A stretch of 64,000 nucleotides of DNA, from positions 36,824,755 through 36,888,754 of the forward strand of contig NC_053048.1 in assembly GCF_003473485.1 (NCBI RefSeq), in the 5' to 3' direction. Below are positions 31,904-63,510 of this stretch, piece by piece. The translations under genes and the position numbers were made by a program. Under the pieces are notes generated by a model. The model was not told the origin of the DNA. It made no database searches and saw only the letters and a program-made list of their open reading frames with translations. How positions within the stretch are numbered: position 1 is the stretch's first letter; each line of letters begins with the position of its first letter. The DNA is from Medicago truncatula. Its lineage: Eukaryota; Streptophyta; Magnoliopsida; Fabales; Fabaceae.

Positions 31904-31963
31904 TGGTTATTTTTGCAACTAAACAAAGAAATGTTGTTTTGGCTATTGATTCCTCTTACATGT

Positions 31964-31975: not shown

Positions 31976-33892
31976 TTTTTAGAGAATATCAATGATGTAG
32001 ACATTCATAAATTATTTGATGATATTACTTCTAAATGATTGAAGAAACTTTCTTGCTTAACAGTACTTCGTCCCTCTCTAATCTTTGGTCCTTTAAGCTT
32101 TTTATTTTTGTCCTAAGACTTTGGTTATGTTTTAGGAAACCAAGATACAATGATGTTTTTCTTTTGTATCCTTTCAAAAACCAAAATCATGTAATAAATG
32201 AATTAAGGGTAGAAATGTATAAACTTTTATCTAAATTAATTATTAATGTGTGTGTCCAATTTTATTATTATTTTTTTTTAAAAACTTGATATTCGACACA
32301 AAGACCGACTAATTCCAAAGGTTCAATTCCACTATTCACTTACAGGCACCCATTTAAAATAAGAAAAAGGGTATGTGTGTACTAGTTCACCGAAATTGAC
32401 ATCGGAAAATTAAACCTCAAATCTTGAGAGAAGCATACTTCAAATCCCATGGAATATCACCGTGCATATATACAAACCTAGATGGGTTGGACTATAATAA
32501 TTAAAGCGTAGTATACTAGTTTAACAAAAATTTAAAATTAGATTAATGAAAACTTAAAATTCTTAATTTTAGGTGGTATTTGAAATTTGCAGTTGGTATA
32601 ATGAAAATTTATAAATGATATTAATGCTGAAAATGAAGAAAACTTTGTGTGAGGAAAAATGTAGCATAGCATTTTAATCATTTTAATACTAACTATATTA
32701 TTATTGTGATATTTTTTGGAAGGTCCTTCAATTGTGATATTGTTGAATATAAGAAATTGTATCATTTTTATTTTATTTTATCAAAACACTAAAATAAAAA
32801 TAAAATGACAGAAGATGTCTGAACCAATACAACAGAGTCATAGAGAGGATAATCTATACAAAAAAATGACATCTATCCCTATAAAAGAAAGGTCCTAAAG
32901 GAAGGGGTGTCAAAGACCACCATTGTATAGAAAAGTTAACGACCGATGTATCATCTTAAATAACTACAAAATAAATAAGTAAAAGAATGGAGTCTCTATT
33001 TATGAAGTTAGTTGAAGGAAAACTATATCAAAAATGACAGTCCTACGAAGCTGAGGGGATTAACATCTACAATTGTGCAAAGAGATATCTAGTTGATCAT
33101 ATCAAATAAAGTTAAGGGATAAACTACATTACATTAATGTATTTGACTCCATATTTTTAAAGTTAATTTTCCTTAAAAAAAAAAAAAAAAGTTAATTTTG
33201 GTGTGCATCAATCGACAACCAAATAATAAAAAAAGAAAACTGTATCTCACCTTATTGTTTTTTTGTTGAATTGCTTGTACAAGTCAAAAGGTGTCGAACC
33301 CACCGGAACATCAAATAATTAATTATGTAACTTATGTTAGAGATGGACAAATCTCTGGACTCTTGAGGAGTCAATTGGCATCACATAATAATGAGTTTTT
33401 GGTTGATAGAATAGCCATAATAAGGATGTTATTATTTTTCTGTACCTAAGGATGGCGATATTTTAACATTCTTTGTGTAGCCCAAAGAGATTTAAACTAC
33501 AAAGAACTAATATTTTCTGTGCCTAAGGATGACATTATTTTAATATGTTAATTCAACATATTTCTTAATCCTAAATTCAAACTCCCTCTTATAACAAAAA
33601 AAAAAAAAAATCAAACTCCCTCTATCTTAAATTATAAGCAAAAATGGATCTAAGAAAGTTAATAAATCTGATTAGTTAGTTTTTATGTTAGGAAGAAGAA
33701 ATTCCTGAGTTAAGAGATGCTTAAATTGTGTTTGCTTCATTTTCTTTTGCAGTGTCATGGCCATCATTTTATTTTTCCTTTTTGCTTGTTCAATTTTTTT
33801 TTTATTCTTCCTTTTTTTATCCGACATTCTTGCAATCTGCTTCTTTGATGGAAATTATCTCTTAGTCTTTATTAAAAAAAAAAACTCTTATG
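31976..33892. other. Intergenic, no gene seen
   Basis: The first 260 bp belong to the duplicated subtilase promoter. The rest is AT-rich with A-runs (33170-33190, 33595-33611) and a partial MITE end at 33612-33690 (CCTCTATCTTAAATTATAAGC). No coding sequence is recognisable. Confidence 0.45.
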
Positions 33893-36890: not shown

Positions 36891-37394
36891 TAAATAATTA
36901 AGTGTTCTTGTATTTTAACACAAGATCTTGTCCTTGTTTCTGTGTTTTATGTTTTTGTTGATGATTATCAACTTCTAAAAGAGGGTATTTCTTCCTCCTT
37001 ACTTGCACGTGACTTTTTTCTGTTCACTTCTAAATTTTGATAGGTATTTCATTCCAATCAATATCAACACAAAGACACTCTATATTGTCCAAATAAAATT
37101 ATGTGGACAGTGAAATCATTTTTGACTTGTCTATCATGCACATACCAATTATACCATATGTATACATATCTGATTGGTCTAAGACACAGTGGTCTCACAT
37201 GTGATCTTTTACATTTTTTGTTTGAAAGGGAGTGATCTTTTACATTGTATAAAAAAAAAATAAAAAAAATTCTGAATATATGTTTCTTGTGCATGAAAAT
37301 TTATGTCCAATCATTTGGAAGCAATATCATTCTCAATCTTCTAAATAATTCATAAATGCCACATCATTGATACTCTCCACAGAATGAAATTTCC
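36891..37394. other. Upstream region of the plus-strand subtilase gene
   Basis: No gene is seen. The last ~100 bp are similar to the promoters of the two minus-strand subtilase copies; the similarity fades further upstream. Confidence 0.45.
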
Positions 37395-37400
37395 TATATA
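37395..37400 (+). promoter_or_regulatory. TATA box of the plus-strand subtilase gene
   Basis: CCTATATAGTCACATG lies 67 bp before the ATG, at the same distance and in the same context as in the minus-strand copy. Confidence 0.65.
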
Positions 37401-37466
37401 GTCACATGATAATAGAAATCAAGAGCAAAAAAACCATTTCTTTGTTTACATGCAAAAAAAAAATCA

Positions 37467-39914
37467 ATGGAGCCTAACAATGTGTTTTCACTTCTTCTCA
37501 TAATTTCTCTTTGGTTTCTATTAACCTTTCATAGCAATGCTGAGACTTCCACATATATAATCCATATGAACAAATCATTCTTTCCTCAAGTCTTCACAAC
37601 TCATCATGATTGGTTCAAATCCACCATTCATTCCTTAAAATCAAAAACATTAGTACCTGATGATTATGACCAAGCATCAAAGCAATCACAGAAGAAACTG
37701 GTGTACACCTATGATCATGCCATGTATGGCTTTAGTGCAGTGTTATCTTCAAATGAGTTAGAGATTCTTAAGAACATTGATGGCTTTGTTTCAGCATATC
37801 AAGATAGAACTGCTACCATTGACACAACTCATACCTTTGAATTTCTTTCACTAGATTCTCCAAGTGGACTATGGCATACTTCAGATTTTGGAGACGATGT
37901 CGTTGTTGGTGTTATTGATACTGGTTTGTGGCCTGAGAGTCAAAGCTTTAAAGATGATGGCATGACAAAGAAAATTCCAAACAAATGGAAAGGAACATGT
38001 GAAACTGGCCAAGAATTCAATACCTCAATGTGTAACTTCAAATTGATTGGAGCTAGATATTTCAACAAAGGTGTGATTGCTTCAAATCCAAATGTTACAA
38101 TCAGCATGAACTCAGCTAGAGACACTATAGGGCATGGAACTCACACATCATCAACTGTTGCAGGTAACTATTTTTTTTGTTGTTGGAGACAAATGTTAGT
38201 AAATTATGTTAGTTTCCGGTGTTTGAACTCTCGACTTCCTAGCTAGTACTCATTCGGTGTCTCTGAGCTTACCAATCGAACTGTCTGCTTTGAACTTGTA
38301 GGTAACTATGTTAATGGAGCTTCTTATTTTGGTTATGCCAAAGGAATAGCAAGAGGCATTGCACCAAAAGCTAGGATTGCTATGTACAAAGTCATTTGGG
38401 AAGAGGGTCGTTTCGCCTCTGATGTTTTAGCTGGCATGGACCAAGCTATTAACGACGGTGTTGATGTGATTTCAATTTCAATGGGATTTGATGATGTTCC
38501 ACTTTATGAAGATCCTATAGCAATAGCTTCATTTGCAGCTATGGAAAAAGGGATTGTTGTTTCATCTTCTGCAGGTAACGCAGGACCTGAATTCGGAACC
38601 TTGCACAATGGTATCCCATGGCTCCTTACTGCAGCTGCAGGAACAATAGATAGAACTTTTGGCACTCTTGTTTTGGGAAATGGTCAAAGCATTATTGGTT
38701 GGACTTTGTTTCCAGCAAATGCTATAGTTGAAAATGTTCTACTTGTTTACAATAACACTTTATCTTCATGCAACTCATTGAACTTGTTATCTCAACTTAA
38801 CAAAAAAGTGATTATTCTCTGTGATGACTCATTGTCAAACAGAAACAAAACCTCAGTGTTTAACCAAATCAATGTTGTTACAGAAGCCAATCTGTTAGGG
38901 GCAGTGTTTGTCTCTGATAGTCCTCAGTTAATCGATTTAGGACGTATCTACACTCCAAGTATTGTAATCAAGCCAAAAGATGCACAATCTGTGATCAATT
39001 ATGCAAAGAGCAATAACAATCCTACATCAAGCATCAAATTTCAACAAACATTTGTAGGAACAAAGCCGGCACCAGCTGCAGCATATTACTCATCAAGAGG
39101 TCCTTCACATAGCTATCCATGGATTTTGAAACCTGATATAATGGCACCTGGATCAAGAGTTCTTGCAGCTTATATTCCTAACAAACCAACAGCTAGAATT
39201 GGCACAAATGTGTTCTTATCAAGTGACTACAATTTCATGTCAGGAACATCCATGTCTTGTCCTCATGTTTCTGGTGTTGCTGCTCTTCTCAAAGCTGCAC
39301 ATCCACAATGGAGTGCTGCTGCTATAAGGTCTGCATTGATAACCACAGCTAATCCTTTAGACAATACACAAAACCCTATAAGGGATAATGGTTACCCTTC
39401 TCAACATGCTTCGCCTCTTGCTATCGGTGCCGGTGAGATTGATCCTAATAGAGCAATGAATCCAGGTTTGATTTATGATGCTACACCACAAGACTATGTT
39501 AATCTTCTCTGTGGTTTGAAATTCACAAAGAACCAAATTTTAACAATTACAAGATCAAATTCTTATGATTGTGAAAACCCTTCTTTGGATCTTAATTACC
39601 CTTCATTTATAGCTTTTTACAGCAACAAAACAAGATCAATGGTTCACAAATTTAAGAGGATTGTTACAAATGTTGGTGATGGTGCTGCTACATATAGAGC
39701 TAAAGTGACATATCCAAAAGGTAGTGTTGTGACAGTGTCACCTGATATATTAACTTTCAAATATAAAAATGAGAAACAAAGTTACAACATTATCATAAAG
39801 TATGTTATGTACAAGAAGGAAAATGTTTCATTTGGGGATCTTGTTTGGATTGAAGATGGTGGAGCACACATTGTTAGAAGTCCTATTGTAGTGGCACCAA
39901 CTGGAATCGTATGA
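37467..39914 (+). CDS. Subtilisin-like serine protease, SBT1 (S8A) type, intact
   Basis: This is a secreted subtilase predicted to act outside the cell. Exon 1 is 37467-38163 and exon 2 is 38302-39914, with a phase-1 GT-AG intron of 138 bp at the same place as in the other copies. The protein has 769 residues. It has a signal peptide ending SNA at 25, an I9 propeptide, D151 (GVIDTGLWPE), H223 (GHGTHT), oxyanion N325 (SSAGNAGP), a PA insertion, S549 (MSGTSMSCPH) and a fibronectin-III-like tail. It lies in opposite orientation to the other two copies, with 5.6 kb between the divergent start codons. It is more diverged than those two are from each other. Its intron and upstream flank are also different, so this duplication is older. 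Confidence 0.95.
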
Positions 39915-41674
39915 GTTATTCTAAATTTTTCTGGCCATAAAAAATCTGCAAACTTTGTGGGACCATATTCCTTGAAATAATTGCATGTAGTTTGGCATGA
40001 ACTTCCATTTTGAGTGTCCTAGCTAGTTATGTCATATATATAGGATTGAACATGTATGTGAAAGTGTACTAGTCAGTAGTATTCACAGGGATTTGGACTG
40101 TTTTTCAATTATGTGAATGATTTCTAAATAGGGGTATCAATTAATAAATTGCACACACTAAAAAACAAGATTGGACTTTGTTCACTAGAACTCAGTGATA
40201 GATCACGGGTCAGGAATTAGTTTTTCACTTCAATTTTTTTTTTATTTTTTTTTTAAGCAAATTGTTCTTCAATTAGTGGTTATATAATAAGTATTTTTTG
40301 TGCGAATATAAAGTGGACACATTATTTTGGTCACACAAAAAATGCACATTATATGATTATTTAAAAAATACATATTATTTAAATTTTTTTCTGTGTTTTT
40401 TCTTTTTTGTGTGTTAAAAAGATGTGGTCAAATCTTTATACTAAAAATTATTATTTTATAATTTGAAATTTGGTTTCATGTGAAGAGTAAGGAGATAGGA
40501 TTGGAACGTGACATGGTTTCAGACCTTAATTTACCCGTGAACATGAACATTGTTATTATTCAACAAAACCAGACTATTATTATTTAATTTAGGTTAAATA
40601 GGTCTTTTGATCCCTTCAGCTCCTTCACAATTTTTTTTAACTTTTCAATAAAAAAGGTCTTTTGATACTTTAAATTTGACAAAAATATCGGATTAATTTT
40701 TTAAGTTTTTTAAGTTTTGCAATTTTGTTTTGAAAAAAGTGATCCGAAATTTGATCCGATCCCATGAGATTTACAAAACAACATACACGAATATTTAGTT
40801 TTTTCGATTTTTGTGGATTGGCTTGTGGTTTTATTTGGATAGGTTTGAATTTAAACACCCTTTGATGATGCATGCAGCCTACATGTGATTGGGGTAAATA
40901 GAAAATTTGATTGGTCACAAATATTTAGACACACGTATTTAAAAAAAAAAAAGGTAATAAGAAAAATGAATCAAATAATATATGTTGAGTGTATTTTTAA
41001 ATGATATGCATAAATACTTGTAACACCCTGTGAGCTTAACTTAGCAAGGACATACATATTATATGTAGATGTTAGAATTTAAACTCCACACACCTCACTT
41101 ATTCTTATTAAAAATGTGAATTTTATTTATTTTTTTAAGAAAAAATGTGAATTTCTTGTCACTATAGAGTACTTAAAAAAAAATTAAATAAATACTTGTG
41201 ACACTTGCTCGAAAAAAAAAAATATTAAGATACTCCGATTATACGGATTCCTGTCTCATTTGATATTGAAGATTCATTCATATCTTCTTGCGAAAAGAAA
41301 CAAAAGATTCATTGATATCTTATTTGATAACGACATCATTCTTGTATTTCTATGACACAACACATATTTTGTTAAGTTTACTTGACAAATGACATTGACG
41401 GTACACAATGCGTACAGTACATTCTAGATAATTTAAATATGGATTTTAAAAAAATAAATTGAAAAGCTAAAATACGATAAAAAGAATCTATATTTACGAT
41501 GAATTATTAAGAAATGAAAAGCAAACGAACAATAAAATGTGCTTCTATCCTAATAAATAAATATATTCAACTTCTTTTTAATAACACATGTGTATTCAAC
41601 TGCATCTCATTACGATAAGTATTTGCATAAATACTTTTGAAAATATGTAATGACATAATACCATAAAAAAATAA
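39915..41674. other. Intergenic, no gene seen
   Basis: AT-rich sequence. A degenerate tRNA-like repeat (TGAGCTTAACTTAGCAAGG ... TTAGAATTTAAACTCC) lies at about 41030-41090. No coding sequence is recognisable. Confidence 0.45.
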
Positions 41675-43326: not shown

Positions 43327-45956
43327 ATGGAACTTTACAACTACATTCTTCACTTCACAGTTCTGTTCCTATGCATGTTTTCTCAGTTATTCAACTGCCA
43401 GCAAGTATACCTCAATAACACTGTCTTTGACTGCACTAACCCCTCTACTGTACCAAAAGGATACCTCTGCAATGGCCTTAAAAAATCATGTACTTCCTTT
43501 TTAGTTTTCAAGTCAAAACCTCTCTATGATAACCCTACAAAAATTGCCTACCTTCTTCGCTCTGAAGCATCAGCCATAGCCTCAATCAATAAGATCCCTT
43601 TAAATGAAAAGATTCCTTCAAATAAATCAATCATTGTCCCAGTCTTTTGTTCATGTGATGGAAATATCTACCAGCATAGTACATCTTACTCTGTAAAGCA
43701 GAATGATACTTACTATGAGTTGGTAAAAGAAACTTACCAAGGCCTTACAACCTGCCAGGCATTGATGGGTCAGAACTACTATGCTCCTGTCTCAATTCAA
43801 CTTGATGCTGAGCTCACAGTTCCAATACTATGTGCTTGTCCCACAGCAAACCTGACGGCAAAAGGGGTTACCTCCTTACTCGTTCACATGGTGAACTATG
43901 GTGAAACGGTTAAGTCGATAGGAGAAGCTTATGGTGTTGATGAACATAGTATGCGAGAGGCCAATGAGTTGTCAGGGCTGCAAAGTGCAAACAGCAGTGT
44001 GATCCTCTTTGCATCGACGCCTATACTAGTTCCTCTGAGACGCAAGAATTGTAAAGAGAACTCAGATAGATTCTATTGCAAATGTTCCGAGGCACTACAT
44101 GGAGATGAAAGCTCCAAGGGGATCTACTGTGACGAATCTCCTAGACGAAAAGTTCCTGCAAAATTGGTTGCTGCCTCAGGTATATTTGTCTACTCTAAAC
44201 CCTCTTCAAGAACAACTTTAAAAAAGTATAGGTTTTAGTGAAATAGTGGATTTTACATTTTAGCATAGCTAGTTAGGTTTGAAATTATGGGTTTTAGTTC
44301 AAAGAAGAAAAATAGGAAGAAATATAATTATAGTGAAATTTACTCAATACTAACTTGATACAAAGACTAAACTCTAACATCTATTTACAGAAATACATAG
44401 AATCAATCCTAGATAAATAGGAAAATCAGAAAATAAATAATCATAATAATGAGTAATATGTAAATTAATCCTAAGAGATAATCTAAAATACGCTAAGATT
44501 ATACACTGATCCTAAGAAATAATCTAACATGCTCTAATATAATATCAAATATATTATAAGCTGTGTTTTCTTATATTTCTAATTGTTAGTAAGGATACAG
44601 GTAGGTAGATAAGGCTAGAATGTTTAAAAGTAATGCCTTAGCTATGCAGACATCTTGCAAGGCTTTTAGTGGAATAAACATAGTACTTTTCTGTTTGCTA
44701 TTGAATATAAGGATGTTTCTTGCTAGTCACGGCAACCAACTGAATTTGAAAAAATAACTGTATTTGCAGGTATGGGAATTGGTACAGTCTTACTGTGTTT
44801 GTTTCTTTTGAGTTGCAAATTATATCAACACATAAAGAAAAGGAGAGCAAGTACTCATAAGGAAAAGTTATTCAGGCAAAACGGTGGTTACTTGTTACAA
44901 GAGAAGTTATCATCTTATGGAAATGGAGAAATGGCAAAGCTTTTTACGGCAGAAGAGCTGCAAAGAGCAACAGATAACTACAACCGGAGTAGATTTCTTG
45001 GTCAAGGTGGCTATGGCACGGTGTACAAAGGAATGTTACCAGATGGAACCATAGTTGCAGTTAAAAAGTCAAAAGAACTAGAAAGGAACCAGATAGAGAC
45101 TTTTGTCAATGAAGTGGTCATCTTGTCACAGATCAACCACAGGAATATTGTCAAACTCTTAGGCTGTTGTCTTGAAACAGAAACTCCATTACTAGTTTAT
45201 GAATTTATTCCCAACGGAACTCTTTCCCAACATATACATATGAAAGACCAAGAGTCCTCCCTTTCATGGGAAAACCGCCTAAGAATTGCATGTGAAGTTG
45301 CTGGAGCAGTGGCATATATGCATTTTTCGGCTTCTATTCCAATCTTCCACAGAGACATAAAACCCACAAACATACTACTAGACAGTAACTTTAGTGCCAA
45401 GGTATCTGATTTTGGGACATCAAGATCAATACCACTAGATAAGACTCACCTAACCACATTTGTAGGTGGAACTTACGGGTACATAGATCCTGAATATTTC
45501 CAGTCCAATCAATTCACTAATAAGAGTGATGTATACAGTTTCGGGGTCGTGCTTGTAGAGCTCATAACCAGTAGAAAGCCTATTTCATTCTATGATGAAG
45601 ATGACGGTCAGAATTTGATTGCACATTTCATTTCAGTGATGAAGGAGAACCAAGTTTCTCAAATTATAGATGCTAGACTGCAAAAGGAAGCAGGGAAAGA
45701 CACCATTCTTGCCATTTCAAGTCTTGCAAGGAGATGCTTGAGACTTAATCATAAGAAAAGACCAACAATGAAAGAAGTTTCAGCAGAATTAGAAACACTA
45801 AGAAAGGCACAAAGTTCTTTTGAAATCAACCATGATCATGATTCTTCATCAAGTGATGAAGAATCATTTGGGCACGGAATTAATGAATCAACAGACCAAG
45901 AGTCCAAAGAGGAAAGCAATTTATTTTCCTTACAAATAGAATCCGCGTCCTTCTGA
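43327..45956 (+). CDS. LysM ectodomain - WAK-type receptor kinase chimera, copy 1
   Basis: This is a predicted plasma-membrane receptor kinase. Exon 1 (43327-44179) encodes residues 1-285; exon 2 (44770-45956) completes a 679-residue protein; the intron is phase 1, GT-AG. The start at 43327 is chosen because a signal peptide (1-24) follows at once. The ectodomain has three LysM-like repeats separated by the C-x-C pairs of plant LysM receptors (C108/C110, C169/C171). A Cys-rich stretch follows (C242, C251, C253, C268) that recalls the last part of an EGF-like module. The transmembrane segment is about 287-303. The kinase (about 360-625) has GQGGYG, K383, HRD (D480), DFG (D498) and GTYGYIDPEY, all intact. 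It is of WAK/WAKL type (NGGYLLQEKLSSYGNGEMAKLF, GCCLETE). LysM domains in related receptors bind N-acetylglucosamine glycans; ligand and role here are inference. Confidence 0.93.
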
Positions 45957-46266
45957 ATCACCGGATTGATACTCCTTTTTTGCTACCCCCAACGTAATTA
46001 GTAGTCCTTGACTCTCAAATCCCAATAGTTATCCACACAGGTTAGGCCCTTTAGATCCACTCTAGGACTAATTCTCGAGTTGGCAGTAGGGCATCTAGTT
46101 TTTTACACGCAGGGTTGGGCTACCTTATACTTGATTCATTATGTTTTGTGCTTGATTTTCAGCATAGGAATGAAGATGTATCTATACTATAGATGGCTTA
46201 GGATAAATGACTTATATTATTTAGCTTGTTTAAATCAAAAATTGGACAAACAATTGTTAGTAATTA
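45957..46266. other. 3' flank of LysM-WAK copy 1
   Basis: Presumed 3' untranslated region and spacer; no gene seen. Confidence 0.45.
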
Positions 46267-46529
46267 CTCCGCTCTGTTTCATAATAATAGTCACTTCTGC
46301 ATTTTTTTATCCGTCTTAAAATAATTGTCACCTTAGGATACTAATGCAACATTTTATTATTTTTTCCACTCATATACCATTATTTATTGAATTTCACTCT
46401 ACTTGACTATAATTCATAAGGGTATTTAAGTAAATAATATTAATTTTACCATTAAAATCAACTAAACTAATTATTTTCTTAAGAATCATGTAAAATTCAA
46501 ATGTGACAACTAAATTGAGATGGAGGGAG
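46267..46529. mobile_element. Stowaway-type MITE
   Basis: The ends CTCCGCTCTGTTTCATAAT and AATTGAGATGGAGGGAG are imperfect TIRs. The element is flanked by TA dinucleotides (46265-46266 and 46530-46531). The 'ctccctccgt' end and TA duplication are typical of Stowaway/mariner-type MITEs. 263 bp, non-coding. Confidence 0.75.
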
Positions 46530-46531
46530 TA

Positions 46532-47810
46532 GTTGTTGTTAACTTGCTAGGTTAAACCCGAGCCCTTCAACTCCTTCAACCTTTAGCTCAAACGAATTGA
46601 GCTATCCAACCTCTTCAAGACTTATATCAGCTTAAAATTGACTGACAACATCTTATAGCAGAAAATTAACATGAGCATGCTGTGTTTTCACCTCATCATG
46701 TACACAATAACCAAATTGTGCATTAAATTTCTTTCTCAAATCAAATACTAATAATTTGCAACCCATGAAAATCGAGTTGAAATTCAATTTAAAACAGAGG
46801 AAGATTGCATCCATGGAAGCAAGCAGGGAGAGGAGACAACACGCGAATGCCATACGTGAACAGCAGTGCGTTTGTGGATGATGAAGCTACGCACATTTAT
46901 TTATTGAATGAATTGATTGAATTGTGTGACTTGTGATTGTGAGATAGGTGTTTTCGGGAAAAGGTATTTTGGGATGCAAATCTGAGTCAACTTAATTTAG
47001 GTATTTTGCGTTGACTTTAAATTCATTTCTTATTTTCCTATTTTCAAAAAATAAATTAAGTTTGATCTTTCTATTTTAAACATCTAAATTTCTTTTTCTT
47101 CTTCTCGATTTTCGTATTTCATCTCATTTCTTGGTCCTCCGTCGTATCTTTGAGTCATTTTTTAAATTGGATGACAAAAATTTCATTTTTAAAAGAAATT
47201 AAAGGGATAAAACAACACATTTAAGCATTTATTGTTCTAATATTTTTTTCTTTAATCTTAAATTTAAATTGTTTAATTCCGTTAGATCTTGCATTAGGGG
47301 ACCGCATGCTAAATGTTGAACAAGAAGACGATGATGATAAATATTATGAAGATTGCACATGAATTTCAAAGCGTGTATGACCACATTAAACTTTAGGTTC
47401 AATTTATTTCTACCGGTATTAGAGAACCTACTTTGGAATCCTTGAGGTGATTTGCACATTCATACAAATCTTATCGATCAAAGATAGTTTATAGAATAAA
47501 GTTTTCTCAACTAATCTTGTGTGTTACAGAAAAGAAGAAATGATTTAGTATTATTTTCGGCATAATGTTGACTCACAAGAATGTGATTTTGTATCTTTTT
47601 CGCGCTTCCAAAATGTTTCTATTTATAGAGAATTTTATGACCTTTGCTGAAGAGATATGACTCTATGAAAGAGTTTTTACAAAGACAAGATGCAATGGTT
47701 GACGCAATAGTGGAAGAAAGTGTTCATTTGCATGTACCAGTGTCATGGGTTCAAATTCAATCAAACACAACTTTTTGCGCGTTCACACTCTTTAACTAAA
47801 CATATTTAAC
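46532..47810. other. Intergenic, no gene seen
   Basis: AT-rich DNA with a tRNA-like patch on the minus strand at about 46556-46610 and short ORFs (for example 46653-46853 minus) of no known family. Confidence 0.4.
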
Positions 47811-49037
47811 GAGTGAATCATCAACTTCGTCCCTGAATTTTTACGGGTCGGCCAACTTCGTCCCTCAATTATGCGAAATATCAATTTAATCCCTGAATTT
47901 GTTAAATGTCAATCAAGTTAGTCCTTCAGTTCAAACGGAGCGTTAACGGGGCTGACGTGGCCGTTAACCTCTCACATGTCAGACGCCACGTAGGCAGGGA
48001 CTAATTTGGCCGATAATGACCTAAATTTTCAAGGACTAAGTTGATTGAATTTCAGGAAATTGCTCTTCTTCCCCAACGGCTCTCTTCCTTCTCCAACGAC
48101 TATTTCTTCCCCAAATATATAAAATTGGAACCCTAATTTTACAATGTGTAATCTACACTCCAAAATCTCCAAATTTTCTTCCAATAATTAAGGGTCACGT
48201 TCTTCCCCAATTTTTTTTAATTGAATCTGAAAACCAAAATCAAAAAATTGCAAACCCTAATTTTTTTTAATTGAATCTGAAAATCAAAATCTGCAAAATT
48301 CATTCAAGCAAAACTGTTGAAATTGAATCTAAAATGATGGGAGGTGGTCATATGGGCAAAAAGAACTATCAAAGTCAAGCTTCATCTTCATCCTCCATGT
48401 TTAATGGTGATGTGAGAGTGCTTGAATGTTGTGTGGGTTGATGAAGCTGAAGAACTAGGTTACTTTAAAAACAATGGAATTTGTGCTGCTCATGGAAGAA
48501 AGACAAGAATGATGGAGAAGGTTCAGTCCATGCTTAAGGCTAAGGAAAGTGGCAATGACGAGGTTTGGAGGGCAAGGTTGATGGAAAGTGAGCTTAGGGT
48601 GATTAAGTTTATGATAGTTATAATTTGCTTGTTTGAGTTTTGCAACATGCTAATGTATATTTCTAAGGTTGTGTAGAGTTGTAATGATTTTACCATGAAA
48701 AGAGGTTGAAGATGAATGAAATGTTGCATATCTGTTATAATTTTACCATCAGATTAGTCCCTGAATTATTTGTGTTACCATCAAATCGATCCCTGAATTA
48801 TTTTAAAAACCATAAAAAAGTCCCTAAATTATATTAACAGAAATCAAGTTGATCCTTGAGGCATAAATTTGCAGAACAACATAAAAAAGGCAGTAGAGAT
48901 ACCAATCAAAATAGTAATAAGTCATAACTAAATGATAAAAATATAAAAATTTGGGGACTATTTTGATATTTCGTTAAATTTGGGGACGAATTTGGCCGAC
49001 CCCTGAAAATTCAGGGACGAAATTGATGGTTCACTTC
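47811..49037 (+). mobile_element. Mutator-like element carrying a second GRF-type ORF
   Basis: The left end GAGTGAATCATCAACTTCGT is mirrored by the right end ACGAAATTGATGGTTCACTTC; the TIRs run for over 50 bp and more loosely for about 200 bp. The flanks ATATTTAAC (47802-47810) and TTATTTAAC (49038-49046) are a 9-bp TSD with one mismatch. The TIRs differ from those of the element at 24870, so this is another family. The interior has no transposase but carries a broken GRF-zinc-finger protein ORF on the plus strand. Confidence 0.85.
48334..48676 (+). pseudogene. GRF-type zinc-finger protein remnant inside the Mutator-like element
   Basis: An ATG at 48334 starts a Gly/Ser-rich leader (GGGHMGKKNYQSQASSSSS) that ends at a stop near 48439. 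In another frame from 48427 the sequence continues with WVDEAEE, the end of a plant GRF finger, followed by a charged linker and a C-terminal hydrophobic helix (FMIVIICLFEFCNML), as in many plant GRF-finger proteins. The core CxCG...NPGRRF is deleted at the frame break. The gene is therefore broken, by a different lesion from that in the element at 24870. Confidence 0.65.
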
Positions 49038-49226
49038 TTATTTAACCATTGGGTTACCGAATAAGATTATATTATTAAATTTATTTAACCATTGCAACTT
49101 TCTAAATATATATTTTGGAAATTCTCTCACAAATTCTAGTAAACTAATTTTGTTTAATTTAATTAATAGATTTTATTTTAATTGTACAGACTCTTTGATC
49201 TTTATATTATAGTTTATTTTATTTGT

Positions 49227-49300
49227 CTTCGTGAGTTTAACTCAATTGGTATGGATAATGTGTAAGGTTCGGGGTTCGAATCCCGGCCAAAAAAAAAATA
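49227..49300 (+). repeat. tRNA-derived SINE-like repeat with A tail
   Basis: The A-box region is GAGTTTAACTCAATTGGTA and the B-box region GGGGTTCGAATCCCGG, ending in a run of nine A residues. This is the best-preserved copy of the family in the window. Confidence 0.7.
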
Positions 49301-50040
49301 GTCTATCTTATTTGAAATCTATAAAGTATTGTCTTTTTTATTTATAGTGTTTTTAGTCTTATGTTTTGATTTTCATGAAACAGATGTTCGTTGTTTTTTA
49401 AAATACACACATGTCAATTCTAAAATTCAAAACGGATTATTAGAATGTAAAAATCATCTCTTTAAAGCTTCTTTTCAGCCTCATTTAATGTTGAATCGAA
49501 GAAACCCGTAATTGATACCAATAATTAATCTTTGACCCGTGAGATGCACGAGTCAATCAATAAACACCAATGAGATTATTAGAGATAAAATATCACAATA
49601 GAGTTCGTCTTAACTTGTTCTTCCATGGTAAATGCCAATCATGTCTTGATTAAAGATTATGGTTAACTTAATTGATTGTTCATCATGCTGGAAGTTTACG
49701 AGAATAACAATAGCAAAGTACCATCTTATATACATTAAGATGAAATTGATTTTCATATTATTTATCTTTAATGTGTATTTGTGTGAAAAATTGTTTCCTT
49801 TTTTTTTTTTTGCGGTCCGCTGACATTATACAGTTATGCACTCATGATGGACCACAATTGATACGCTAAAAAATGAGATACTGAGAAATAGCAAACATGA
49901 ATTGAGTAAGAAACTCAGTGGATGTCGCTCCTATTCTAAAAAAGATAAAAATGGCATCTACATATTCACATGGTTTACTCTAAAGTGAATATCAAATCCA
50001 AGATATAAGCTTAAAAACAAATTAAACAATACATACTTAG
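49301..50040. other. Gene-free interval with a Helitron-like hairpin
   Basis: At about 49532-49556 GACCCGTGAGATGCACGAGTC resembles the Helitron 3' hairpins at 2626 and 8628, but no CTRR end follows. Nothing else is recognisable. Confidence 0.35.
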
Positions 50041-51124
50041 GGGTGTATTGGAGTATTGGATTGAGATTTCAAAGAATTTTAAAAGACTTTTTTGTTTTAT
50101 AAAAGTCTTGTAGTATTCAATTAAGATTTTTAAGGAATGTAAAACATTCTTGTGGTATTCAATTAGGATTTTCAAGATTTTTTAATGAGTCCAATGAAAT
50201 CCAGTGGTATTCAATTGAGATTTTGCATAACTTAAAAATTGTCTGCTATTATTCAAAACTCTACGGATTTTAATGGATTGTTGTGAGTAATGGATTTTGT
50301 GAGATTGTTTAGTGTAAAATGTATCTATTAACAATCTCACACCTAACCTTGAGACTTTTTTGTCTCCCACACATAGCCTTGAGATTTTGTAATACTCTTC
50401 CAAATTCATTTTTTTATTTTTTTTTACGTTTCTTCCAAATTCTTTTCTGTTCTACTGTAACAATGGCAGATTATATATTATCGTCGAAATCATCATGCCT
50501 CTAACTTGCACTTTTCTTAACATAACTTTTACGTTCATTAAAAAAAAAGAACGTACTGTATAATCTTGTGGTTAATTTACCATCTACCTATATATCAAAT
50601 TATTATAAAAATCACAACTTTTTGTTCATTGGTATTATAATAATTTTTCTACTTGCATTTTTCTACCTGTAACATGCATTTTTCAATCAAATTATTATAA
50701 TCAATAAACTAACATAATTTTAGGTCTATTTATTTTGATATCATATGTCCAGAATTTTTAAGATCAATCAACCTGCTAGTAGTATATTATCTAATAGTCT
50801 TTTTTTTTAAGAAATATTACACTCATTGATTCAATGTTTTGTTTTCGGTTGATTTATAACTGTACTTTTGTTTTTGAGATTTTTTGGTCTGTACTGTATC
50901 TTTAAATTTATTGACCCTTTTAAAATCTTTAAAATCCATTAAAATCCTTTAAAATCTATATCATGAATCCATTAAAATCTTGGAAAGAATCTTGATTGTA
51001 AAAAGTCTTTGAAAAAAAGTTTTTTAAAATCCCACAAAATCAATACAATCCAACAAAGTCTTTTAAAATCTTCAAGATTTTTTCTATCAAAATAGTCTTT
51101 TAAAATCTCAATCCAATACACCCC
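50041..51124. mobile_element. 1.1-kb TIR element, 'gggtgtattggattgag' type
   Basis: The left end GGGGTGTATTGGAGTATTGG is mirrored by the right end CTCAATCCAATACACCCC, each followed inward by AAAATCTTTTAAAA-like words. Several internal copies of GGTATTCAATTGAGATTTT lie at 50110-50225. No transposase is present. The TSD could not be fixed. Confidence 0.7.
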
Positions 51125-53551
51125 CTTGATTAAAGCCAATCCAGCAAAAGTTACAAATACAAATTTGTATCCAAAATAGTTAACTCAGCCCTTACATTAT
51201 TCACACAAAATATGACAAATCATAAATGGAAAATTTCAACTACGAAAGGGTGAACAAAACATTAGATAGCCAAAATGATTTCACTAAAGACATTTTAGAA
51301 CTCTTACTTTGAATCTTCAATCTTGATGCATGACATTTTAGAACTCTTTGGAGTGGATGCATTTTAGATCTTTTTTCCACTAATTTTCTATCAGCAGGAA
51401 TCCAAGTGCTTCTGATACATAATTTTAGATCTTTTTTCCACTCAAAAGCTTACATTTGATACATAACTTAACTCAAAACTGCAAAACCACACATATTGCC
51501 TCTGCTCTTTATTCCTTTGAATCTGAAAAAGACATATACTAACTTCAAATGATGATGTGTACTCCCTGATTTAAAACAAAGGTTAACTGATTTTACTTGA
51601 CATAGTTTCAATTTGGAATTGGTAAAATGATCTAAAAGTAGTAGTTTTGCATTTCCCTTTTCCCTCAAAGTTTGTAAAGTTCAATGTATTCTTCATTTCC
51701 TTCTCTTTCACTCAACTATGGAAAGATTCTACCTCCATCCCAATAAATCACAAAACTCCATCTGAATAAATCTCGAACAAACGTTGTGGGTGCTCCAGTC
51801 ATTTTTGTTGCTGATACATCTGCAATTACTGATAGAGTTTGATTGTAGGGGAGAATGAGTTTTCCATAATATAACATGATGAAGTTGTAAGGGAGGAAGA
51901 TCAATTTCTTTTAAGGCATAAATAGTGCAAGAAAATTGTAAATGATAGAAAAACAAATTAAAATGATTGAAAGCAAAACACATTGAAAAATCAAAATGAA
52001 CTAAATTTGATATTTGTTTACTTGGAATATATCAGACAAAAATTGGAAACGAAAAAGTCTGAGCAGAAAATTCAAAAAACAAATTAAGTATGTGAACAAA
52101 AAACAGATATAAAAAACTCAAAATATTAGTGTAACTACACATACTTTGGTTGGTTGAAGAGTCCCTTCGGGATTGCACCACAGAACCCAAACCATCCCTA
52201 TGTGGACTCAACCTGATTTATCAAATCAGGAGGTGGGAGATGATTACCTGAAGCCGTATTAGCAGATTCCACAAAACCTTTAATTATCTAATCACAAATC
52301 CAATTTGGTTAGATGGATTTAACCAGTCTACTCTAGGTCTTATGTCTCAATAAATCTACACCAAAGCTTGCTCAAGTTCTTAAAAAGGGAAGTGGAACTC
52401 ATTGTAATTAAGTATATAATGTTAAAGAATGAAACCAAATTTACAAAACCTTTCCAAAGTTACCAAATTAGCAGATGTATCAATACAGAATAAAATTTTG
52501 CAAGAGAAACAAAAACACTTAATATTCATACCTATAAATCAGATGTTTAAATATATTACTGTAACTTTAGACCTTTTTTTGCTTACTTATAACCACTATA
52601 ATGGTTGAAGAAAATAAAAAATTATCTTAAAAAACCATTTTCATCCAAAGTCATGTAACATATAGCAACAAACAACTATTAGAACAAAATAAAGGCAAAA
52701 GAGCTGATTGGTTGACATGTTTGGTGAAACATGTCAATTGTAATTGATTGACTTTAAACATGATTTTTATATTTAAATTTATTGTTTAATTTTTTTTTTT
52801 ACGTGGAAACAATAACTCTAATTGAACTCATTTTGAACTAAAATTAATTTTACATGATCAATTCAAAATAAAATTGTCACCAAAAAATTAATCATTCACT
52901 TTAGTCTACTATGCAGCAGCCGTAGAGGATTTGAATGCATAACCCAAGCATCTTTGAAAAAATGAGTATAATCTTCTCTTAATAAATAAATAATAGCTAG
53001 ATAATGACATAAGTGACAACAAACTTAGAAATTCCGTTTAGAATACTTGCGTCACATCAAGATAAATTAGAAAAAAGATAAGCACGTTATTCTATCCCCC
53101 TAGTTACAGCTCATAAAGGAATCTTTAACTTCAAATGTGTTATGGAGGAAAGTCATTATTTCAAAGCTGACCAATAAGCTAGTGACAATTCAAGACAAAA
53201 TCTTGAGTGATATAGACTTGAGTTTGGAACAAATAATTGATTATTTATATCTTATGATTTGGTATGCTGAATATTCAGCCAAAAGGATATGGTTTGACCA
53301 AAACAATTCAACATTTGAATGACAAGGTGTTTAGTAACAAAAAAACTTTGCTACATAGTGTGTCACATTCTTGACTTGTAGAGGGATAAATATGACTTAG
53401 CTAACATGTTAAAGTTGTTGCAACTTTGACTAATACAAATCCTTATAATCGTCAATGAATCAAGGGTGATATAAACATGAGGGTAATAATATGAATGAAT
53501 ACCTTGGATCTTAAACTACACCTCAAAATTGAAGTGCAACTCATCAAACTC
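51125..53551. other. Intergenic upstream of LysM-WAK copy 2; unrecognised coding-like patches
   Basis: Two overlapping minus-strand ORFs at 51716-51983 and a short minus-strand patch at about 52150-52285 (Pro-Pro-Pro-Asp-Leu-Ile-Asn-Gln-Val) have coding-like texture, but frames are broken and I recognise no family. ATTTTAGATCTTTTTTCCACT occurs twice (51361 and 51423). On the plus strand 53137-53322 is a 61-codon ORF of unknown nature just upstream of the receptor gene. The promoter of that gene must lie in the last few hundred bases, with no decisive motif. Confidence 0.35.
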
Positions 53552-56039
53552 ATGAAGTTTCTTTATCTTTACATTCTCTTATGTATGTTACCTTACTCAA
53601 TCAACTGCCAACAGATATTACTTAACACCACTGTCACTGATTGCTCAGGCACCCCTTCAGCACCAAAAGGATACCTATGCAATAGTCCTCAAAACTCATG
53701 CAATTCATTCTTAACTTTCAGGTCAAAACCTTCTTATGACAACCCTACAAGTATTGCTTACCTTCTTGGCTCAGAAGCATCGACCATAGCCTCAATCAAC
53801 AACATCTCAAGAAATGAAAAACTTCCAACCAATAAAACAATCATTGTCCCTATCTTGTGCTCATGTTCTGGAAATATCTACCAACATAACACTCCTTACA
53901 CTGTCCAAAAAGGTGATACATACTTTCACTTGGTAAATGAAACTTACCAAAGCCTCACAACATGTCAAGCTTTGAAGGGTCAGAATTATTATGCTTCTGA
54001 AAACATTGCAATTGGTGCCGAGGTAACAGTTCCAGTACTTTGTGCTTGTCCTACAACAACACAGATGGCGAAAGGGATCACTTCCTTGCTGGTTTACATA
54101 GTGAACTATGGTGAAACTGTTAAGTCTATAGGAGAGGCTTATGGTGTTGATGAACAAAGCATATTAGAGGCAAATGAGTTGCAACCAAGTGAAAACAGAA
54201 GTGTGATTCTCTTTGCGTTGACACCGATATTACTTCCTCTTAGAGGCAAGAGCTGCAAAGAGGATCCTGATAGTTTCTACTGTACTTGTTCTCAGGGAAG
54301 GCTAGCAGATGGAAGTTGTAATGAATCCCATGGTCAAAAGTTTCCTGCCAAGTTGGTTGCTGCATTAGGTAATATTGGACTAAAATACCCTTATTTAATT
54401 TCTAGTATTTGTAATTAATTGTAACAGAAATGTCTAAGTTCTTTGTCACAACTAAGGGTATAGCTGAAAAATCACTCACTAGACATTGGATTTCTAAGGT
54501 ATCAATAGTTTTGAAACAAAAGGAAGTGATAGATTAGAAAACAAATTGAGTTGTGAATTAATGCTAGTTTTTTTTAATCCTTTTTTGGCCCCTAGAGAGA
54601 AATAGACTAAACATGTAATAGGACTAACATCCTCACCAGCCCCTTCCTCCTCTCAAGACTTTGGCGAACTTTCAGCCAAAAGATATTTAATTTAACGACC
54701 AAGAGTACTTACTCCCAGTCATTGCATCAAATCAACGACAGATTTCGCTGGTGAGGCAAGATGGACTGCAAGTAAAAATGGAGATGTTTGTTACTAGTTC
54801 CATGTCAGTAGTCCTTGCTTCTCCCTTCAATTTTGAAAATGTCTTTATGTATTTGCAGGTGTTGGTATTGGTGCAGGCTTTCTGGTATTGTTTCTGCTTA
54901 GTTACAGGTTATATCAATACATAAAGAAAAAGAGAGCGAGTATTCGTAAGGAAAAGTTATTCAGGCAAAACGGTGGTTACTTGTTACAAGAGAAGTTATC
55001 ATCATATGGAAATGGAGAAATGGCAAAGCTTTTTACAGCAGAGGAGCTCCAAAGAGCAACAGATGACTACAACCAAAGTAGGTTTCTTGGTCAAGGCGGC
55101 TATGGCACAGTGTACAAAGGAATGCTACCAGATGGAACCATAGTCGCAGTTAAAAAGTCAAAACACCTTGACAGAAACCAAATAGAAACGTTTGTCAACG
55201 AAGTAGTCATCTTATCTCAGATCAACCACAGGAACATTGTCAAACTTTTAGGTTGTTGTCTTGAGACAGAAACTCCATTACTTGTCTATGAATACATTCA
55301 CAGCGGAACTCTTTCCCAACATATCCATGGGAAAGACCGTGATTCATCCCTTTCATGGGAAAGTCGCCTTAGAATTGCATGTGAGGTTGCCGGAGCAGTG
55401 ACATATATGCATTTCTCAGCTTCTATTCCAATCTTCCATAGAGACATAAAACCAAGTAACATACTCCTAGACAATAACTATAGTGCCAAAGTGTCTGATT
55501 TTGGAACATCTAGATCAATCCCATTAGATAAGACTCATTTAACCACAGCAGTAGGAGGTACTTTTGGGTACATGGATCCTGAATATTTTCAGTCAAGTCA
55601 ATTTACAGATAAGAGTGATGTATATAGTTTCGGCGTGGTGCTTGTTGAGCTTATAACCGGTAGAAAGCCAATAACATTCAATGATGAAGATGAGGGTCAG
55701 AATATGACGGCACATTTCATTTCAGTGATGAAGGAAAACCAACTTCCTCAAATTTTAGATAACGCATTGGTTAATGAAGCAAGGAAAGATGACATTCTAG
55801 CTATTGCAAATCTTGCAATGAGATGTTTGAGACTTAATGGTAAGAAAAGACCAACAATGAAAGAGGTTTCAATGGAATTAGAAGCACTAAGAAAGGTACA
55901 GAGTTCCTTACATATCAAAGATGATCAAGAATCACCAAGTGATGAACAATCACTTAGGCATACAACTAATGATACATTTCATGAGTCTACAGTGGAAAGC
56001 TTTTCGCTATCCTCGCAAATGGAGTCCACATACTTCTAA
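53552..56039 (+). CDS. LysM ectodomain - WAK-type receptor kinase chimera, copy 2
   Basis: This is a predicted plasma-membrane receptor kinase and tandem paralogue of the gene at 43327. Exon 1 (53552-54368) and exon 2 (54859-56039) give 665 residues; the intron is phase 1 at the same codon as in copy 1. An in-frame ATG at 53495 would add 19 hydrophilic residues; 53552 is preferred because the signal peptide (1-19) follows directly. LysM-type C-x-C pairs are C103/C105 and C164/C166, and juxtamembrane cysteines are C235, C244, C246 and C256. The kinase is intact: GQGGYG, K371, HRD (D468), DFG (D486), GTFGYMDPEY. The exon 2 products are much more alike between the copies than the exon 1 products, which suggests faster change in the ectodomain (by-eye estimate). 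The active RD kinase sets it apart from LYR/NFP-type LysM receptors, whose kinases are inactive. Confidence 0.93.
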
Positions 56040-56189
56040 AATGCCAGATTGATACATATTATTGATTTATTATGCTTTCTTCTACATTTTCAACTTATGG
56101 ACTAAGGTATATCCTGGAGATGGCTGAGGATACACATGACAATTTTTTTAATTCCTTAATCAACAATCAACAACATCTGAACTCTGAAG

Positions 56190-56437
56190 AGATACCAAAC
56201 TTCGTTCTAATAAAATAATCGTTGTCCCTATCTGTTGTTCATATTCAGGAAATATCTACCAACATAACACCCCCTACACTGTCAAAAAAAGGTGATTCCT
56301 ATTATCACTTGGTAAATGGTACTTACCAAAGAAAGCCTCACGCCATGTCAGGCTACGAAGGGTCAGAATTACTATGCTTCTGTGAAAACATTTCAATTGA
56401 TGTTGAGCTCACATTTGATCAAGGAGACAGGTCAAGC
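56190..56437 (+). pseudogene. LysM ectodomain fragment (third copy, exon 1 part)
   Basis: This aligns with the middle of exon 1 of the gene just upstream, from the end of LysM1 through LysM2 (GNIYQHNTPYTVKK, then HLVNGTYQ, then GQNYYASV). At least two frameshifts break it, near 56288 and 56330. The second Cys of the C-x-C pair (CCSYSG for CSCSG) is lost. No signal peptide, third LysM or kinase follows. Confidence 0.88.
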
Positions 56438-58928: not shown

Positions 58929-60081
58929 TCATAATTCATTGACCAATCTAACGCCAGTAGGGAGTGAAAGCAGAGACTCTGTATACACGACCATTTTGGA
59001 TCTACCTGAAAAACAGCAATGATATGAGAGATTCTCTAGCAGCTGGCCTTTGTAATTAAACTTCACCAATTCATCATGACCATCTGTTCCAACTATATCA
59101 CCACAATTTGTAAAATATACAAGGAAGAAGTCCGGATCAGGACGTATAGAAAAAACAAGAGTCTTAATCCAAGATGAATGCACTGCATATTCTTGCATTA
59201 CCCATATCTCCACTACATCCATGTCCACAATCCATGCACTAATAAGCCCATCAAGCACCAACAAATCATATTGTATAGAATAAGTAACACAAAAATCCTT
59301 TGGCAGAGCTATCTCTGATATTGTCGTTTCCTTTAAATCAAAGGCAATAATAACATTCATGTTGGTCTCATGATTATGAACCACCCAATGAATAGCCCCA
59401 TTCAAGAACAACCCAACTTTGTTGGAAGGACGATTAGTATTAATTACCATATAAGGTAAATGAAAACCAACCTCAACTTGTTTCCACTTATTAGTTCTCA
59501 ATGAGAAAATCTCCAAGGTAATCAAACCAGATACCCGATCATAGTCATTATAGCATTTATAGGACCCTAAAACTACCAAGTAATCATCAGTTGACGGTTC
59601 GTATGCAAAGCCATACAAAAACCTTAAAATATTGCGATTGAGAATATTAAGCTTGATTCCAATAGTCATAGGTGACCTAGGTATTTGTTTGTGGACTCCG
59701 GTGGATGGATTCCATAGATAGAAGCCTTTGTCAGAGTGCAAAAACACAAACCCCCTGCATGAACCTCCGATTTGTGGATGTTGTTGGTGATCCATAAAAT
59801 CAATTATGGGTGGAACATAAGCAGAATCACCGCTAAGAGATGCATCAAAATCAATGGATAAGGTTTCAGGGAAACAATCATTTCCTATGGACAAAAGGTT
59901 ATGTGTGGGTGAGGCGGCAAGATGAAAATGTAAAGTTGCAAAATTGGGATGAGAGATGAGAGATGAGAGACAGCCATGATTTGCAAACGCACCTGTAACG
60001 TAATACATACTTCACCGGCAACCTCAATAGGATTTCTGTTATCACTTTCGGAAGCAGATGCACGCTTCTTCTCTTAGTCAT
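58929..60081 (-). pseudogene. F-box/FBA-domain gene with a 7-bp-repeat frameshift
   Basis: F-box proteins of this kind recruit targets to SCF ubiquitin ligases. The ATG at 60081 opens an N-terminal F-box (LLPKVITEILLRLPVK, then RCVCKSWLSLIS). The rest of the protein, a C-terminal FBA_1 type domain (GSCRGFVFL, YLWNPSTG, FAYEPSTDDY and repeated strands), is readable to the TGA at 58931-58929, but in another frame. The shift lies in three tandem copies of GATGAGA (59948-59968, plus strand). Two copies would restore one frame of about 381 residues, the usual family length. Apart from that, no other lesion is seen in either half, so the allele may be recently broken, or variable in the population, or a sequencing error. 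No intron that would remove the repeat is evident. Confidence 0.88.
59948..59968. repeat. Three tandem 7-bp units inside the F-box gene
   Basis: GATGAGA is present three times in a row. Because 7 is not a multiple of 3, each gain or loss of a unit shifts the frame of the F-box gene. Confidence 0.9.
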
Positions 60082-61744: not shown

Positions 61745-62150
61745 GTACAAGAATGGAAGGAAACAATACATTATTATGGAGGGTGGGGACAATGACAATG
61801 GAAGGAAACAAATTGCTAATATTAACATAAAAAATACATAAAATACTATAAGAGACAACATGATGATGAAATAAGATAAAGATTATGAAGTTCATGTCTA
61901 CTCCCAATTATGTTCATTCTACTTGCAGTTTCACTATTCTACCTATCATTTTCTCATGCTTCTTGATGGCGAACATTCATAATATACAAGATAAATATAT
62001 AGAAAATGTAAATGCGGAAATTTCACAATCACGCTTTACTTGTTTGTTATCACTATAGTCATCTTCTAATTAAGCTTGCTCAGTAGTCAGTGTCACCAGA
62101 GAATGAAAGCAAAGACTCTATACACGGTTATTTCAGATGGATATGTTTCA
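61745..62150 (-). pseudogene. F-box gene 3' flank and C-terminal remnant
   Basis: The block 61745-62117 matches 63655-64000, and about 62090-62150 matches the last codons of the F-box gene (58950-59010). It is therefore a decayed copy of an F-box gene end with its downstream flank. It stops at about 62160, where the kinase fragment begins. Confidence 0.7.
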
Positions 62151-62160
62151 AAATAATTCA

Positions 62161-62478
62161 TGCTGTTGATCTGAGATAAGATGAATACTTTGACAAAAGC
62201 TTCTATTTGGTTCCTGTCAAGCTGTTTCGACTTTTTAACTGCAATTATGGTTCCTTCCAGTGACATTATTACTTTATATACCGCGCCAACTCTGGTTGTA
62301 GCTATCTGTTGCTCTTTGCAGTTCCTCTGCTATAAAAAGTTTTGCCTTTTCTCCTTTTCCATAAGACGAGAATTTATACCGTAAAAAGTAAGTAGCCTCC
62401 ATTTTGGTTGAACAGCTTTGCCTTACGAATACTTTCTTTTTCTTTATGTATTGATATAACTTGCACCAATGCTAACAC
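62161..62478 (-). pseudogene. WAK-type kinase fragment of the LysM-WAK family (exon 2 part)
   Basis: On the minus strand the sequence starts with an intron end TTTGCAG and then GTGTTAGCATTGGTGCA, as at the exon 2 start of the receptor genes. It continues through the juxtamembrane region (QNGGYLL, AEELQRATD), a damaged glycine loop, EGTIIAVKKSKQLDRNQIEAF, and ends after a Leu-Ser-Gln-Ile-Asn block. Most of the transmembrane segment and the Gly-rich loop are deleted, and several frameshifts are present. It is closest to the gene at 53552 by eye. The catalytic loop is absent, so it is a dead fragment, and it is in the opposite orientation to the two genes. Confidence 0.88.
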
Positions 62479-63189
62479 CTGCAAATACACAAACACAAAT
62501 TTTCAAATTCATCATTTTGATTTTACCCTGGATAACACACCAATGGCTCCTTCATCATTCATCATTTTGTTTGCTTCATTTTTTTTTTTCGGACTTTTGG
62601 TTTTTCCAACTTCACATTTACAACTCCAACCTTTTCCTCATTAGTCATTAATTGTTACTATTGAAAAATAAAATTATACAAATGACATAAAAACTTACAA
62701 CTCCTCAAGTATTCTAGCAACTATAATCTTTGAATCTCAGCCATCTGCAATTCGCATTCAATCAATTGTAATATATGGTTCGTCAATCGATTTGCGAACA
62801 ATACTGGTTCTGTGTTTTTACGTTTATGATTTTCGAACAATTGTCAGTTGATTTAGTCTACACCACCCAAAAGTCTAACTATTTATTCAGGTTGTTTTCA
62901 TTTTTTAAATTATATAAATGTCAACTTCCTCTAAAAAAATGTCAATAAGTAGAACCCCAATTATGTGTCAGCCATGGTGGCTTCAATGAGGTAAGGGATG
63001 ATGCAAGTTAGGAGAGGCTATGAATACTAGGGGTGGTGCAATTACTAGGCTGTTTGAATTTTTTGATCTGTATCATTTTATATGTTATTGCTTTGTTAAT
63101 AATATTAGCAATTTTTTCCTTCTTGAAGTCGTGATAGATGATTTATTGCATTGCTAGCATGATATGAATTCAATTTGATTGGGATCATC
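62479..63189. other. Intergenic between pseudogene fragments
   Basis: Directly upstream of the kinase fragment no exon 1 (LysM) remnant could be found. AT-rich DNA with no recognisable gene. Confidence 0.45.
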
Positions 63190-63510
63190 ATCGCATTTGT
63201 AGGACCCCAAAACTACCAAGTAATCATATGTTAACGGGTTCGTAAGCAAAGGCATACAAAAACACGAGAATATTATGATTGGGATTATTATGATCGAATA
63301 CAATAGTTATAGAAGACCTAGGTATTTGCTGGTAGACTCCGGTGGATGGATTCCATAACTAGAAGCCTTTGTCAGACTGCAAAAAACACAAACCCCCTAC
63401 ACGAACCTCCGATTTGAGGACGATATTGGTGACGCATAAAATCAAGGCTCAGTGAAGCATAAGCAGAATGATCCTTAAGAGATGCATCAAAATCTATGGA
63501 TAGGATTCCC
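63190..63510 (-). pseudogene. F-box/FBA gene fragment (central part)
   Basis: This matches 59560-59870 of the F-box gene, covering the GSCRGF to FAYEPST region, but with many substitutions, small indels and frame breaks. The F-box itself and the C-terminal half are absent. Its original C-terminal end may be the remnant at 62090-62150, with the kinase fragment and other DNA now between them. Confidence 0.85.

Follow-up and report, generated by a model that had tools for sequence, protein, structure and literature searches.

The 64,000-nucleotide stretch of Medicago truncatula DNA analyzed here (the window; NCBI RefSeq assembly GCF_003473485.1, contig NC_053048.1, positions 36,824,755 to 36,888,754 of the forward strand) holds two tandem genes, arranged head to tail and made of two exons each, that encode a LysM ectodomain, a transmembrane segment, and a protein kinase (gene 1, 679 residues; gene 2, 665 residues; Table 1). 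Both genes match the Pfam families LysM1_NFP_LYK, LysM2_CERK1_LYK3_4_5, LysM3_LYK4_5, and protein kinase, all above cut-off, and no GUB_WAK or EGF family was found in either at E <= 0.1. Both introns interrupt a codon after its first base. For gene 2, the start was chosen by alignment to gene 1, the earliest ATG in frame lying at 53495, and the signal peptide of both genes was judged by eye from a hydrophobic leader. We are confident that both proteins belong to the LysM-III (LYRIV) receptor kinases, with a LYR-like LysM triplet joined to a WAK-type kinase; gene 1 most likely corresponds to MtLYR6 and gene 2 to MtLYR5.

A sequence-only reading of the locus had assigned three LysM units and two CxC pairs to exon 1, and this is borne out by Pfam, by alignment, and by a model of the ectodomain. 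The four cysteines of the CxC pairs are invariant among 45 aligned sequences, and the gene 1 model made with that alignment (mean predicted local distance difference test [pLDDT] score 80.3) contains three beta-alpha-alpha-beta units, with pLDDT mostly above 90 over the first 190 residues and mostly below 50 over the last 44. Against solved structures, the ectodomain scores 163 bits with MtLYR4 (9gxz) and 162 with Lotus CHIP13, compared with 63 for NFP and 50 for CERK1. The top Foldseek match is CHIP13 with chitooctaose (E 7.3e-27, 42% identity), and the CHIP13 and MtLYR4 structures (9q83, 9q84, 9h39, 9h3a, 9gxf, 9gxz) have the same fold as the pair, with 40-42% identity and template modeling scores (TM-scores) of 0.87-0.91 by target. 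CHIP13 and the pair also have in common a LysM2 stretch around TYQ-LTTCQALM. These similarities in sequence and predicted fold make chitin-type binding by the ectodomain plausible. Two loci of the same genome could be tied to solved structures directly: L011 is MtLYR4, being identical to 9gxz over 212 aligned residues, and L016 is identical to the NFP structure 7au7 over 186 residues. All trees were built from chosen rows (ectodomain, 64; kinase, 94; ectodomain with the genome's own paralogues, 37); in the last of these LysM-III forms one clade (branch support 100/99) and the LYKs a separate one (100/100).

Exon 2 had been read as a transmembrane segment followed by a kinase with its Gly-rich loop, Lys, HRD, and DFG in place, and these motifs are intact in both genes (GQGGYGTV, VAVKK, HRDIKP, DFGTSR, DPEY); the catalytic motifs are likewise retained in 31 or 32 of 32 LysM-III proteins. 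In contrast, the Gly-rich loop is absent from the kinases of all 25 LYR (group II) references. The gene 1 kinase is 74% (69-98) identical to 32 other LysM-III proteins, a set that takes in Orobanche, Liquidambar, and two unnamed proteins, and has a median identity of 59% (50-66) to 44 WAK references, against 37% (34-40) to 25 LYRs and 33-37% to six LYRs from the same genome; the kinase part of MtLYR4, encoded in one open frame, is just 36% identical to it. After the pair itself, the next 20 kinase matches in the genome are WAK-like loci, 51-55% identical. In the kinase tree the LYRs stand apart (100/99). Rosid LysM-III kinases, together with those from Liquidambar and Orobanche, make up a single clade (100/99) inside the WAKs; the Ficus kinase P0148, filed there as a WAK with no LysM family listed, sits in that clade and was treated as a member of it in the approximately unbiased (AU) tests described below. 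LYK kinases, which the tree does not include, were compared through solved structures only: FERONIA scores 214 bits, and CERK1 (179) and LYK3 (175) fall below FERONIA, BAK1, SymRK, and BRI1, in a list that holds no WAK. Pfam, bit scores, trees, and identities thus support two ancestries for these proteins, WAK-type for the kinase and LYR-like for the LysM ectodomain.

The introns of 590 and 490 bp, flanked by exons that are each an open frame by themselves, could also suggest two separate genes, a kinase gene and one for a soluble LysM protein, which merely seem joined. We consider this highly improbable, since the relatives' proteins P0064 (1704-nt contig), P0034 (2660 nt), and P0136 (2188 nt) continue across the join at the corresponding position. 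The read-through of P0064 and P0034, which are close relatives and not the pair genes, fits spliced RNA or an intronless copy; the splicing together of exons 1 and 2 is thereby supported, by proteins of relatives and not by reads from the pair itself. Our protein listings comprised 64 proteins in one case, the best 120 of 7974 in another, and the best 120 of 381 in a third, and counts by taxon are no census; among the 260 fetched proteins, 195 have a LysM-III-like ectodomain, joined in the same chain to a WAK-type kinase in 77, to a LYR kinase in 111, and to neither clearly in 7, and the 77 argue further against separate genes. P0034 combines a gene-2-like ectodomain with a gene-1-like kinase, and a natural exon exchange was considered for it and rejected in favor of an assembly chimera as the simpler reading: its crossover, between residues 330 and 370 and thus downstream of the join, falls in a region where the two pair genes share a run of 57 identical bases, from 44858.

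The combination had been taken as new in the sequence-only reading, and this was not upheld. MtLYR5 (Medtr7g079350) and MtLYR6 (Medtr7g079320) have been placed in group LYRIV, with a kinase near the WAKs (Arrighi 2006, as cited in PMC6207691), alongside LjLYS20 and PpLYR5 (PMC6207691); the same group appears as LysM-III in PMC6625017, which describes it as having two exons and conserved kinase residues and as confined to rosids, gives separate trees for both parts, and cites Arrighi and Lohmann for its proposed chimeric origin. Our pair agrees with this group in its LYR-type LysM triplet, where a CxC pair separates LysM1 from LysM2, in its two exons (judged from GT-AG sites and the intron-free open reading frames of relatives), and in its WAK-related kinase with conserved residues; it also agrees with the two Medicago members, by their identifiers, in its location on chromosome 7, and no difference was found. 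The match to MtLYR5 and MtLYR6 is based on group, species, and chromosome, the published genes being compared by these descriptions and not by sequence, and the assignment of gene 1 to LYR6 and gene 2 to LYR5 follows locus order and the grouping of gene 1 with Lotus (95/88, ectodomain tree). Other LysM receptors and the WAKs differ from the pair. LYK (group I) genes have ten or more exons, compared with two in each pair gene, and the ectodomain of the pair is by similarity nearer to LYR than to LYK. WAK/WAKL proteins have a like kinase, a pre-membrane intron of like phase and place, and probably the end of the EGF module in common with the pair; their GUB_WAK and full EGF ectodomain, however, are missing, with LysMs and an EGF-like stub in their place. 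A "WAKL" LysM group of Rosaceae, named after its kinase, resembles the pair in a best Arabidopsis hit to WAKL and approximately two exons, in other species (PMC7487666). What may be new is confined to the anatomy of the junction and to the side leads in Proteaceae and Orobanche. Our literature search, as far as the listings and passages that it covered, did not find these points, nor the EGF-like stub, although Arrighi 2006 and Lohmann 2010 may already hold intron or EGF detail, and it found no publication naming Proteaceae for a LysM-WAK fusion and no ligand or phenotype for the LysM-III group.

The exon preceding the intron extends beyond the LysM triplet, and the segment in question looks like the final part of a WAK EGF module. 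The motif C-x-CxC-x-C, located before the intron, is present in 60/64 LysM-III proteins (64 of a set of 72, 8 having been dropped and both window genes included) and 14/22 WAKs, but in 0/25 LYRs. By hhalign, the stub aligns with WAK EGF ends over 24 columns with a probability of 89% and a score of 34.15, versus a probability of 0.4% and one column with LYR, and the best score obtained with shuffled WAK columns was 21.88 (97 of 100 shuffles usable). The intron itself was considered as the fusion point and rejected, since the EGF-like stub precedes it; on this similarity, the break probably sits further upstream. The position of the intron is consistent with a WAK origin. The kinase exons of the pair start 36.7 codons before the NGG motif, and a same-phase AG acceptor occurs within 2.1 codons of 34.7, a generous search window, in 19/20 WAK-like loci of the genome: 14 have it at 34.7, the two closest in sequence (L034 and L035) at 36.7, and three at 33.7, and L049 misses. 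As a control, 27 other settings of place and phase gave 0 to 14 of 20 loci; AG is frequent at certain positions inside the exon too (19/20 at 37 bases and 14/20 at 97 bases before the NGG motif). Eight loci of LYR type in this genome (L011-L018) each consist of one uninterrupted open frame, 609-716 residues long.

These observations suggest an origin in which a LYR-type LysM triplet would have been placed ahead of a WAK gene broken within its last EGF-like module; a portion of that module would have been carried along, as would the kinase exon and the phase-1 intron before it. In the resulting protein, the ectodomain is predicted to face the apoplast and, by analogy with its CHIP13/LYR4 relatives, to bind an N-acetylglucosamine-containing oligosaccharide; the kinase, of the arginine-aspartate (RD) type, would phosphorylate itself or partners, and could supply the catalytic output that LYR proteins lack. 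The sequence-only reading had gone on to suggest that such a protein might signal without a LYK co-receptor.

Several results weigh against this account, or against parts of it. Trees that put the ectodomains to the LYK side of the LYRs (p 0.713, on the deepest splits) or the LysM-III kinases to the LYR side of every WAK (p 0.0875) were not rejected by AU tests. The statement that exon 2 falls outside LYK/LYR accordingly stands for LYR in the best tree, with one AU test that is not decisive, and for LYK by solved-kinase score only. Both p values speak to rooting more than to nesting, and the trees alone are not final. As regards the junction, an EGF-like motif lies upstream within the examined flank in just 15/20 WAK-like loci, these 20 loci are largely tandem clusters and hence not independent, and the stub segment, when left untrimmed, matched LYR at 91% via the end of LysM3, which is as expected for a LYR-type ectodomain. 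As regards function, no ligand, expression, or mutant data for MtLYR5 or MtLYR6 were found in the literature search, and LysM receptors are described as acting in hetero-complexes (PMC6207691). The last point, together with nearest ectodomains of the chitin-receptor type and a kinase from a family other than LYR, would suit a modulator, i.e. a glycan-binding protein that is no receptor by itself and whose kinase feeds wall signaling or tunes LYK/LYR complexes. We regard this as rather doubtful, as the retention of catalytic motifs across nearly all LysM-III proteins noted above argues for a predicted kinase activity of their own.

The two genes have diverged under constraint. Gene 1 and gene 2 are 66.8% identical in the exon 1 part and 80.4% in the exon 2 part, and their ratios of nonsynonymous to synonymous divergence (dN/dS; 0.27 and 0.24, respectively) indicate purifying selection and frames that are not due to chance. 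Synonymous divergence (dS) between the copies is 0.465 (0.369-0.594) in exon 2 versus 0.717 (0.549-0.977) in exon 1, with overlapping intervals, a comparison that bears on gene conversion of the kinase exon. In both the ectodomain and the kinase tree, gene 1 clusters with P0001 and P0002, and gene 2 with P0029 and P0030; Lathyrus oleraceus is the source of P0001 as well as of P0030, implying that the duplication predates the separation from that lineage. The genome yielded 23 matches to the ectodomain, of which the pair alone covers the full length at 67% identity or more; the runner-up stands at 43%. A broken LysM exon and a broken kinase exon near the pair (Table 1) are signs of more duplication and decay in the cluster, and a LysM fragment (L019, C7:34881649-34881840), which matches 64 residues of the gene 1 ectodomain with 60% identity, lies on the same chromosome about 2 Mb off. 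Other features of the window are listed in the lower part of Table 1.

Table 1. Features of the window, numbered from its first nucleotide
Feature	Position	Strand	Description
Gene 1 (probably MtLYR6), exon 1	43327-44179	+	Hydrophobic leader, LysM triplet, pre-membrane EGF-like stub
Gene 1, intron	44180-44769	+	GT-AG, phase 1, 590 bp
Gene 1, exon 2	44770-45956	+	Transmembrane segment, WAK-type RD kinase, motifs intact
Gene 2 (probably MtLYR5), exon 1	53552-54368	+	Make-up as gene 1, exon 1
Gene 2, intron	54369-54858	+	GT-AG, phase 1, 490 bp
Gene 2, exon 2	54859-56039	+	Transmembrane segment, WAK-type RD kinase, motifs intact
Relic of a third LysM exon	56188-56413	+	LysM1-LysM2 part, with stops and frame changes
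Relic of a kinase exon	62145-62498	-	Transmembrane and N-lobe part, broken
Open frames	3782-7615	+	By eye like a Helitron-type helicase element
Two alike small frames	16987-17526; 23450-23938	-; -	By eye RING-finger proteins with a transmembrane segment
Three gene copies	26228-32204; 37304-39915	-; +	88-94% DNA identity; by eye subtilisin-like proteases
Frame	58929-60008	-	By eye like an F-box associated protein
Partial copy of the preceding frame	63185-63508		83% DNA identity

Beyond Medicago, comparison of the fetched proteins points to a wider and perhaps more complex history. Liquidambar belongs to the Saxifragales, and its protein P0048 falls inside the LysM-III kinase clade. This extends the clade beyond the rosids to which it is assigned in PMC6625017. 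In the parasitic asterid Orobanche minor, a LysM-WAK protein (P0052) is encoded on a 110 Mb contig, the size of which makes contamination less likely without excluding it. The P0052 ectodomain joins two Trema proteins (Rosales; 100/100) and its kinase joins Ficus and Trema (100/92); AU tests picked after the trees were known reject a position outside LysM-III for the ectodomain (p 3.4e-06) and the kinase (p 0.0014), and a position outside Rosales for the ectodomain (p 0.028). On these sequence relationships, P0052 is a candidate for horizontal transfer from Rosales.

Four proteins of Proteaceae (Macadamia, Telopea, and Protea; P0049, P0155, P0059, P0061) also combine a LysM triplet with WAK parts, following a proline-rich linker. 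GUB_WAK is present in 3/4 of these models and no EGF-like stub was found in any of the proteins; the two Protea models are without kinase and so enter only the ectodomain tree. In the best trees, a 100/99 branch places the Proteaceae ectodomains on the side of the LYRs and the kinase lies beside Kingdonia WAKs (99/97); the fusion in this family is differently built and perhaps independent. A single fusion behind all LysM-WAK proteins, Proteaceae included, would be compatible with AU tests that leave one clade unrejected (p 0.385 for ectodomains, 0.17 for kinases), but the best trees set Proteaceae apart by both parts, and the linker, the missing stub, and the GUB_WAK matches point the same way; we therefore judge a single fusion unlikely. 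In Quercus lobata, P0224 carries a LYR-type LysM triplet with a kinase whose name assigns it to the G-type lectin S-receptor type. Its ectodomain groups with Fagus P0207 (100/95) and its kinase is 34% identical to that of gene 1, although P0224 is a gene model that may be a mis-join, and its position in the kinase tree is unsure (branch 2.09). We tentatively propose, at somewhat less than even confidence, that LysM triplets were joined to borrowed kinases more than once (in a rosid/Saxifragales line, a Proteaceae line, and perhaps an oak line represented by P0224), the first version then passing from a Rosales plant to Orobanche minor. Under repeated fusion, and with the same reserve, the break in the rosid/Saxifragales line would lie inside the WAK EGF module, whereas Proteaceae would have kept a LYR-type linker and partly GUB_WAK.

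The Medicago pair represents a natural domain swap that puts a LYR-type ectodomain together with a kinase of active type from a different family, and would test whether LysM signaling depends on the attached kinase. The side results add a concrete origin for the junction, i.e. a fusion upstream of a carried-along WAK intron, and hint that fusion took place repeatedly, with a single candidate case of transfer into a parasite; if that transfer is real, the Orobanche minor genome holds a kind of glycan receptor not met in the other asterids examined.

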